A stretch of DNA of 64,000 nt, taken from NCBI GenBank assembly GCA_001542995.1, contig LFLA01000018.1:161501-225500 (forward strand), in the 5' to 3' direction. Position numbers and translations under genes: made by a program. The notes below the pieces were generated by a model. It ran no database searches. It saw only the letters and a program-made list of their open reading frames with translations, and had not been told where the DNA came from. Shown piece by piece: positions 32,445 to 34,327 of this stretch (positions within the stretch are counted from its first letter, which is position 1; each line of letters begins with the position of its first letter). The stretch comes from Nitrospina sp. LS_NOB. GTDB taxonomy: Bacteria; Nitrospinota; Nitrospinia; Nitrospinales; VA-1.

Positions 32445-32624
32445 TGGACGGTGCCGGAGATACGTGCCGCAATATCAGGTTAATACCCCAATCAATTATA
32501 GGATAAACACTTAATATGTGATCGGATGTTATGAGGCTCTGCCCTTGGTTGCTTGCGGGCATTCAGGGCTAGTTATATAACTTATTGTAAATAAAGCGGT
32601 TTAATCCAGCACTGGAAATAAACG

Positions 32625-32652
32625 TTGACATGTTTTAGCGCATAAGTATACT
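32625..32652 (+). promoter_or_regulatory. Sigma-70 type promoter
   Basis: TTGACA (32625-32630), 16-base spacer, TATACT (32647-32652). The -35 box is consensus and the -10 box is one base off. A start near 32659 would give a 5' leader of roughly 215 bases before the ATG at 32876. Confidence 0.7.
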
Positions 32653-32680
32653 TTGTCTAAATCCGAGACCGGGCTTATTA

Positions 32681-32700
32681 AAGTAGGATATTTCCTACTT
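32681..32700 (+). promoter_or_regulatory. Perfect leader hairpin
   Basis: AAGTAGGA-TATT-TCCTACTT is an 8-bp perfect stem with a 4-base loop, about 22 bases after the predicted transcript start. There is no T tract, so it is not a terminator. It may stabilise the mRNA 5' end, bind a protein, or be a DNA operator at the promoter. Confidence 0.5.
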
Positions 32701-32875
32701 GTCAGTTTTGGGAAAAGCGCCGAAAACCACTCCAGTCGTTAGGAGCTCAGGTGCTGAAATGTTCTTTGAGAAATTTCTTTTAGTTCTAATGGGAGGGGGC
32801 TAATTCCTTGGAATTTGCCTCGTTTAGAATATTAGTAGGTGAACGTTTGTTAACTAGGGTAAGGGAGAATTTATC

Positions 32876-33304
32876 ATGAAAAAACTCGCTATTGTTTTAG
32901 TTGTAACCATTGCGTCTTTCTGTCTCGCCAGTTCTGCATTTGCAGGAATGTTGTCGGCGGGCGCGATGACTAAATGCACCGACGCTAAATCCATCAAAAT
33001 TGAAGCTGGGGGTGGCGGAGCTGAAGATCGGGGTGAAGCAAATGCTTCGGTCTGGTTTTCTTCAACTCATATCACGAGTGCTATAAGCTTGGCCCCGAAT
33101 GCGAATATGGGTTTTCCCACGAACGGTGGTGGAGCTGCAGGTAATTCCTCAGTGAAAATGGGCAGCAAGCATTCCATGGGGAAAAAATCTGTGACATTGG
33201 TTAGGCAAAATAACTTCAGCCGTGGCGATTCCATTTCAGACATCAATGGCGAAGTTAGAATCACCAATAATGGTACAACCGATCTTATTATAACCTGTGG
33301 TTAA
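32876..33304 (+). CDS. Small secreted protein, unknown family
   Basis: 142 residues with a clean signal peptide (cleavage after SSAFA, about residue 23). The mature protein is glycine/serine/asparagine-rich, with a GGGGAEDRGEA segment and repeated short polar strands, and has two cysteines, Cys34 and Cys141, that could close a disulfide across the whole chain. AAGGGAG precedes the ATG. A consensus promoter, a long leader and a strong terminator surround it, so it is probably a highly expressed single-gene unit. I recognise no family; a structural or adhesion role is only a guess. Confidence 0.8.
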   Translation: MKKLAIVLVVTIASFCLASSAFAGMLSAGAMTKCTDAKSIKIEAGGGGAEDRGEANASVWFSSTHITSAISLAPNANMGFPTNGGGAAGNSSVKMGSKHSMGKKSVTLVRQNNFSRGDSISDINGEVRITNNGTTDLIITCG

Positions 33305-33324: not shown

Positions 33325-33354
33325 AAGCCGGCCTGTTTACAGGCCGGCTTTTTT
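33325..33354 (+). terminator. Strong intrinsic terminator
   Basis: AAGCCGGCCTG-TTTA-CAGGCCGGCTT is an 11-bp perfect GC-rich stem followed by TTTT. It ends the secreted-protein transcript. The leading A-rich side is weaker, but it could also serve uppP from the other strand. Confidence 0.92.
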
Positions 33355-33367
33355 ATTGCCACTCTCC

Positions 33368-34174
33368 TCAGTAATAAAGCAGAATCCCGCCCGCGAGAAT
33401 CACCCTGTATATGATAAAGGGTAAAAGACCCACTCTCTCAACGATCTTGAGAAGAAGTTGAATAGCCAGCAAACCAACCAGAAAGCTTATCCCCATCCCA
33501 ATTACAAGATGGAGGTTGGAATAGGTTTGTTCTGCAACCGGGTGTGAAATAAACTGCATCAGCTTGTGCATGCCTGCTGCAAAAATAATTGGAGTTCCCA
33601 GGAGAAAAGAAAACCGGGTTGCTGAAGTGTGCGAGAGGTTGCTGAAGAGTCCCGCGGCGATGGTGATGCCAGACCGTGAGGTTCCCGGCAACAGGGCAAC
33701 GGCCTGGGCGCACCCGATAAATAAAATTTGCCGGAGGCTCAACCGGTTTAATTCTGTGTTGGGGTTGGAGCTTTTTGAGCCGTACCGGTCTGCCACCAGG
33801 AATATGAGGGACCAGAAAAAAAGATTGTACCCGACAAAAGTGGGGTTCCTCAAGTTGGCTTCAATCCATCCTCCGCCAAACAGTCCTATCAGCCCCGCCG
33901 GGAACGAAGCAATGATAATGCACCATGCAAGGTGGTGAGTCTCCGGAGAACCCTGGCGGTCAAACAATCCCTTGGCTAAATCTATTAGTTCTTTGCGGAA
34001 GAAGATTATGATTGCCAGAAGGGTGCCTAAATGCAAAATGGCATCGAGAGCAAGACCCTGATCTTCAAGATTGAAGATTAGAGGAGCCAATATTAGATGT
34101 CCGGAACTGGAGATAGGCAGAAACTCAGTGAGTCCCTGAATAATGCTCAATAAAATTATTTGAAAAAATTCCAT
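33368..34174 (-). CDS. uppP: Undecaprenyl-diphosphatase (bacitracin resistance protein)
   Basis: 268 residues from ATG 34174 (TTG 34180 would add two). It is a polytopic inner-membrane BacA/UppP protein. Catalytic motifs are QGLTEFLPISSSGHLIL near the N-terminus and PGTSRSGITIAAG in the middle. It recycles the undecaprenyl carrier for peptidoglycan and O-antigen synthesis. It is convergent with the secreted-protein gene and shares the terminator region. Confidence 0.95.
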   Translation of the reverse strand: MEFFQIILLSIIQGLTEFLPISSSGHLILAPLIFNLEDQGLALDAILHLGTLLAIIIFFRKELIDLAKGLFDRQGSPETHHLAWCIIIASFPAGLIGLFGGGWIEANLRNPTFVGYNLFFWSLIFLVADRYGSKSSNPNTELNRLSLRQILFIGCAQAVALLPGTSRSGITIAAGLFSNLSHTSATRFSFLLGTPIIFAAGMHKLMQFISHPVAEQTYSNLHLVIGMGISFLVGLLAIQLLLKIVERVGLLPFIIYRVILAGGILLYY

Positions 34175-34327
34175 GTGCAATTGGAGGAAGATGATCTGGC
34201 TAAGCCCGGAAGATCACCGGGAGTGGATTTTGTCCGCCATTCCCGGATCAATCTGGAAAGAAACCTGCAAGCGGGAACCAACGAGATGATTGTCGACCAT
34301 CTCAAGGGCAAATACTACTCTCTGTAA
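34160..34327 (+). CDS. Possible small protein or gene remnant of 55 codons
   Basis: An open frame runs from TTG 34160 (or GTG 34175) to TAA 34325. It overlaps the 5' end of uppP on the other strand by 15 bases. The predicted chain is basic and looks protein-like: LAKPGRSPGVDFVRHSRI, then NLERNLQAGTNEMIVDHLKG, ending YYSL. It could be the 3' end of a lost longer gene. No ribosome site is evident for TTG, and I recognise no family. Confidence 0.35.
   Translation: MKKFHVQLEEDDLAKPGRSPGVDFVRHSRINLERNLQAGTNEMIVDHLKGKYYSL

Follow-up and report, generated by a model that had tools for sequence, protein, structure and literature searches.

The E. coli ompA 5' UTR is reportedly a stabilising leader, and its effect on stability is said to have been measured. 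The STAB-SD and polypurine 5' stabilisers of Bacillus are located close to the 5' end, or else at the start codon. Riboswitches are widespread. PMC2358910 presents a mycobacterial case of a polypurine 5' stabiliser, and according to PMC10839748, a study of Nitrospinota genomes, no other known nitrite oxidisers are as abundant in the marine water column as the Nitrospinota. We analysed a window of 64,000 nucleotides from a Nitrospinota MAG (2.65 Mb; the locus is on a contig of 227,869 bases) in which a long leader precedes the gene for a small secreted protein. Judged from its sequence, this leader belongs to a known kind, the structured cis-acting 5' UTRs, of which it is a case not described before. 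The open-access literature on Nitrospina and Nitrospinae yielded nothing on the protein, its leader or its post-transcriptional control, and term searches in PMC8026999, PMC10839748 and PMC3578206 yielded nothing on the protein or the leader.

A unit of promoter, leader, orphan gene and terminator

A promoter, a long leader, a gene for a 142-residue orphan protein and a terminator make up a real unit that recurs in relatives. The promoter, on the forward strand, has a −35 element TTGACA starting at position 32625, a spacer of 16 nt and a −10 element TATACT ending at 32652, with 11 of 12 consensus matches. Consensus-type promoter matches as such are not rare in this DNA (6 found versus 2.8 expected). 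The extended pattern TTGACATG-N10-TAAGTATACT (32625–32652), with at most one mismatch, was present as a single copy in 26 of 60 genomes, and all 26 matches precede the gene for the 142-residue protein, as checked by hand against the list of homologues; the reversed pattern, used as a control, had no match in the 60 genomes. The near-consensus promoter proposed in an earlier, sequence-only reading of this DNA is thereby confirmed, and by these matches it is real and specific to the secreted-protein gene. Farther upstream lies the element TAGGATAAACACTTA (32499–32513, forward strand), and similar elements are found before several paralogues. With up to one mismatch it occurs once in its own genome, and the reversed-pattern control was likewise found once per strand. 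The upstream regions of the paralogues (L046–L052 and L060–L072) are different; the pattern TAGGAYAAACACYTA (at 32499 here), with up to two mismatches, was found upstream of 12 of the 25 paralogues as well as 6 of the 46 orthologues in a search run without a shuffle control. None of these paralogues matched the leader model.

The leader had been put at about 215 bases. About 217 nt are conserved in blocks, a length that assumes transcription starting near 32659, which we infer rather than map, and going by the conserved promoter alone the leader is presumably co-transcribed with the gene. At the other end of the unit, an intrinsic terminator (33325–33350, forward strand) consists of an 11-bp stem with a T-rich tail. 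A similar downstream stem was present at 28 of 28 loci examined with our own stem finder, used without a shuffle control, and the strong terminator previously noted at the gene's end is upheld. Since it sits between the secreted-protein gene and a convergent gene (33368–34180), presumably for an undecaprenyl-diphosphatase from its resemblance, it may serve both. The codon usage of the 142-residue gene scores 0.776, close to the 0.70–0.80 of ribosomal-protein genes (a reference that includes a few doubtful ORFs), and ranks third among 60 ORFs of the window.

The predicted secreted protein (32876–33304, forward strand) starts with what by eye resembles a signal peptide, and two cysteines, C34 and C141, are invariant in 51 aligned sequences. 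Relatives were found in 57 of the 100 genomes searched, namely 57 of 64 from the order and 0 of 36 from outside it; those with names come from Nitrospinaceae, Nitrospina and Nitrospinota MAGs. The protein had no match in Pfam and none above cut-off in NCBIfam, the 51 aligned family members gave only weak Pfam matches (best E 0.011), sequence matches in the PDB were confined to the signal peptide and its vicinity (best E 0.031), and a search for a phage relative found none. Fold prediction was poor without an alignment (pLDDT 39.4); with the 51 sequences it gave a beta-rich model (pLDDT 76.5, pTM 0.64). Foldseek returned one match at E ≤0.001, a Cry5B chain with a TM of 0.33 by query length. 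The best VIA-align match was the nucleoplasmin core (rmsd 2.5 over 86 residues), at Z 8.1, a range in which the tool warns of a mere common arrangement. We drew no function from either structural match. The genome also carries a second copy of the family (L050, G000:C5:132138-132536), which has a premature TGA and is the only family match with an internal stop among the matches listed.

Conservation and folding of the leader

Conservation of the promoter and of the leader in blocks is established by mean pairwise identity over 12 loci of the genus. The DNA preceding the promoter has 47% identity, the promoter itself 84%, the 27 nt that follow it 44%, a palindrome 66%, a middle hairpin 48%, a 14-codon mini-ORF 63% and the portion of this mini-ORF before a 3' domain 55%; that domain (32785–32842) has 80% and the translation-start region (32843–32875) 89%. 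In the coding sequence the values are 84% for the signal-peptide codons, 74% for the remainder and 56.5% for third codon positions; the terminator has 91%. Both the 3' domain and the start region are thus more conserved than the mature coding part, though the signal-peptide codons are at 84%, and both exceed the third codon positions and the DNA preceding the promoter. Folding stability of the leader as a whole is hardly above that of shuffled sequences (z −0.66 for this leader and a mean of −1.15 over 18 leaders), and we set aside unusual stability as weak. The predicted mean unpaired fraction was 0.33 for the Shine-Dalgarno (SD) sequence, 0.52 for an internal purine box and 0.37 for the leader, with no clear signal of either sequestration or opening of the SD. 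No Rfam family reached its gathering score in the window and none matched 32600–32900 up to an E of 10; the leader is thus not assigned to a known Rfam cis-regulatory RNA or riboswitch.

The middle hairpin (32716–32755, forward strand) has an outer helix of 6 bp (AGCGCC/GGTGCT), an inner helix (CTCC/GGAG) and the loop AGTCGTTA. In 10 related leaders of the genus, aligned by hand with the structure in view, 56 of 60 cells of the outer helix are paired and double changes occur at all six pairs; arms shuffled among leaders matched this in 1 of 5000 trials. These are the compensatory changes of a structured cis-acting 5' UTR, and on this alignment the hairpin preserves its structure while its sequence varies. 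The covariation that the sequence-only reading had proposed to look for in the leader is therefore present here, in one helix. The inner helix is weaker, with 47 of 59 cells paired and shuffles as good in 137 of 5000 trials; a second genus of the family contributed five leaders, aligned over the inner helix alone, with 36 of 40 cells paired. Of 15 leaders compared, 6 have the same loop, AGTCGCTG. The middle hairpin is not indispensable: it cannot be fitted to L004 and L011, two leaders of the first genus, it is absent from L013, and in L012 most of the leader is missing.

The 3' hairpin (32784–32829, forward strand) was compared in 13 leaders and is formed by an outer helix TTCTAA/TTAGAA, an inner helix GGGGC/GCCTC and a short TTC/GAA helix near the loop, with 84.6%, 100% and 92.3% of cells paired, respectively. 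These helices hold a single double change, in the inner helix. Because the region hardly varies, the structure as a whole shows no clear excess over shuffles, 98 of 500 of which reach it. The entire domain (32784–32842) includes a GGGAG box and the inner hairpin. At the corresponding place in genus g8 and a neighbour, helices of the forms AAGATG/CATCTT, AAGGTG/CATCTT and AAGGTG/CACCTT can be seen by eye, and the detail of the helices varies across genera and families. A covariance model of the 3' domain had 27 matches in 26 of 64 genomes, of which 13 are its training rows and several others are weak; the stricter filters of this search may have lost weak matches. By a hand check against the list of homologues, 26 of the matches adjoin the start of the secreted-protein gene and the remaining one, away from it, is weak (E 0.099); among the genomes searched, the leader model is in effect limited to this gene. 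It had no match before the listed paralogues in the 64 genomes under strict filters, which may drop weak ones.

Within this domain is the conserved, SD-like purine box GGGAGGGGGC (32791–32800, forward strand; GGGAGGAGGC and similar sequences in relatives), about 130 nt from the presumed 5' end. The translation-start region contains TTAACTAGGGTAAGGGAG (32850–32867, forward strand), with the SD at 32863–32867. Its pattern TTAACNAGGGTAAGG was found in 20 of 60 genomes, where 19 of the 20 matches precede the secreted-protein gene, compared with 2 matches for the control. In L012, from a genome of 1.7 Mb (G005), the leader is just about 135 nt long; the −35 element (TTGACATG) and the translation-start region are retained, but the middle hairpin and the greater part of the 3' domain are missing. 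The hairpin at 32716–32755, the 3' domain and the conservation of the start region were all absent from the sequence-only reading.

A palindrome in or near the promoter

The leader had also been said to hold a perfect 8-bp hairpin. This element (32681–32700) has the sequence AAGTAGGA-TATT-TCCTACTT with a core TAGGA-N4-TCCTA, and its perfect pairing was confirmed. A role as an RNA helix did not find support: over 18 leaders from two genera we detected no covariation, and the pairing was no better than with shuffled partners (77.8% versus 76.7% of cells; 42–51% for slid versions), with a covariation score of 0.158 versus 0.155 for shuffled partners and no double change in the five core pairs. 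The core itself is well conserved over the 18 leaders. Among 19 leaders of genera g1 and g6, 6 have the exact TAGGA-N4-TCCTA and 10 the looser TAGG-N6-CCTA. Genus g14 belongs to another family (f2). In three of its six leaders the full core is found immediately 5' of the −35 box, and five of the six have TAGGA half-sites spaced by 23–24 bp. Such TAGGA repeats with a spacing of 23–24 bp abut the −35 box on its upstream side in the f2 leaders L025, L028–L030 and L039. Related TAGG/CCTA pairs are found upstream in 4 of 5 leaders of genus g8, and palindromes of the TAGG/CCTA type were not detected in the four leaders of family f4.

The lack of covariation and the full core upstream of the −35 box in another family make it more likely that the palindrome is a DNA site, putatively tied to the secreted-protein gene family and probably bound by a transcription factor. 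It does not qualify as the site of a genome-wide regulon, since 60 genomes hold 81 sites (summed by hand) versus 175 for the reversed-pattern control; being rarer than the control, it can at most be specific to the secreted-protein gene family. By a hand count of the 75 sites listed of these 81, 11 precede a family gene by at most 700 bp and 8 of the 11 by at most 300 bp; some of these come from close relatives.

Readings of the leader and comparison with known systems

The sequence-only reading suggested post-transcriptional control, possibly through translation of a leader peptide, and pointed to a 14-codon frame with AGGAG upstream. The frame does exist in the window (ATG at 32759, TAA at 32801–32803, forward strand), but it is not conserved: just one of 18 leaders has an ATG at the aligned column, and L013 has one near this position, displaced by a gap. 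AGGAG (32741–32745) is 13 nt from the ATG and forms the 3' side of the inner helix of the covarying middle hairpin, and is thus a helix arm rather than an evident ribosome site. We therefore reject the frame as a leader peptide and do not regard it as a gene; from this comparison it looks like an accident. A peptide might instead start from a TTG, which 8 of 18 leaders have at a suitable distance 3' of the purine box. The start and stop of a 9-codon TTG frame are common to L015, L020 and L023, all of one genus, and L003 and L011 have in common a 23-codon frame that ends at the ATG of the secreted-protein gene. Against this, 10 of the 18 leaders have no TTG frame and the frames of the others end at several different stops. 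The TTG is also part of the loop of a conserved hairpin, a position that may account for its presence and makes these frames weak evidence for a peptide. L010 and L019 have an SD-preceded short frame in common elsewhere in the leader; among the 18 leaders no group larger than two or three was found with a common start and stop for such a frame, nor did these leaders show a short ORF whose start, frame and ribosome site are all conserved, as in a leader-peptide attenuator. Leader-peptide control through either kind of frame is accordingly very improbable.

Another reading holds that DNA-level signals and the translation-start region suffice, that is, the promoter, operator-like palindromes and the SD, and that the RNA helices are by-products. 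It would fit a palindrome that does not covary and that changes its position relative to the promoter with lineage, a promoter conserved as a long block, and a leader that is not unusually stable, but it does not account for the double changes at 6 of 6 outer pairs of the middle helix or for a 3' domain that is 80% identical, and we consider it unlikely. The leader could also be a switch, in which a metabolite, a CsrA-kind RNA-binding protein or temperature shifts the pairing between CUCC/GCCUC-type arms and three GGGAG-type boxes (in the middle hairpin, in the internal box and at the SD), thereby switching translation on or off. The recurrence of purine boxes and complementary arms across leaders, together with the loop that is identical in 6 of 15, is consistent with such a switch; the missing Rfam match and the confinement to one gene of one order, which is unlike riboswitches, argue against it and leave it rather unlikely. 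That it constitutes an undescribed cis-regulatory RNA class private to the order, with one copy per genome, in which GGGAG boxes and CUCC/GCCUC arms compete and so adjust the production of the lineage-specific secreted protein to some signal, seems quite unlikely.

The reading that we favour, tentatively and a little short of calling it probable, is that of a gene-specific 5' UTR that raises the mRNA stability or the translation of an abundant secreted protein. A strong, gene-specific promoter would produce a single-gene transcript with a long cis-acting 5' UTR, whose folded middle and 3' hairpins and internal purine box resembling a ribosome-binding site would keep the mRNA long-lived and loaded with ribosomes; such an mRNA would yield large amounts of the small secreted protein. 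The TAGGA/TCCTA palindrome would then be a site in its own right, acting as DNA and probably bound by a transcription factor. The leader would thus probably set the amount of secreted protein made. We arrive at this gene-specific 5' UTR because the presumed single-gene transcript, the strong promoter, the terminator stems at 28 of 28 loci, the codon usage and the long conserved leader resemble those of leaders that stabilise messages or boost translation of abundant envelope proteins. Also in its favour are the promoter, which precedes the secreted-protein gene in 26 of 26 matches, the conserved leader blocks, the double changes at all six outer pairs of the middle hairpin, the fully paired 3' inner helix of 13 leaders, the 26 of 27 model matches adjoining the gene, and the 11 palindrome sites upstream of family genes. 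Counting against it are the mean stability z of −1.15, an SD that is not predicted to be open, the 98 of 500 shuffles that reach the 3' structure, the internal position of the purine box, the exceptions L004, L011, L012 and L013, the variation of helices between genera and families, and the 81 palindrome sites versus 175 in the control. The broader suggestion of post-transcriptional control or a regulatory RNA is supported in part: conserved blocks and a covarying hairpin speak for a cis-acting RNA leader, and the leader-peptide form finds no support. The promoter and leader belong to a single orphan gene and persist through the family, which suggests that the protein is important to the cell and needed in a set amount, and the locus offers a concrete gene, hairpin and purine box that can be tested.

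Among the described systems, the locus resembles the ompA 5' UTR in that a long structured leader would belong to one abundant envelope protein gene. It differs in that the hairpins here are internal and the stability effect is inferred, whereas that of ompA is a measured one. With the STAB-SD and polypurine stabilisers of Bacillus it has in common an SD-like purine box in the leader that is not followed by a start codon common to all relatives; unlike in those stabilisers, the box is internal and its effect is only putative. A leader whose fold is conserved and includes SD-like as well as complementary arms is also a feature of translational riboswitches, from which the present leader is set apart by having no Rfam match and by belonging to one gene of one order.
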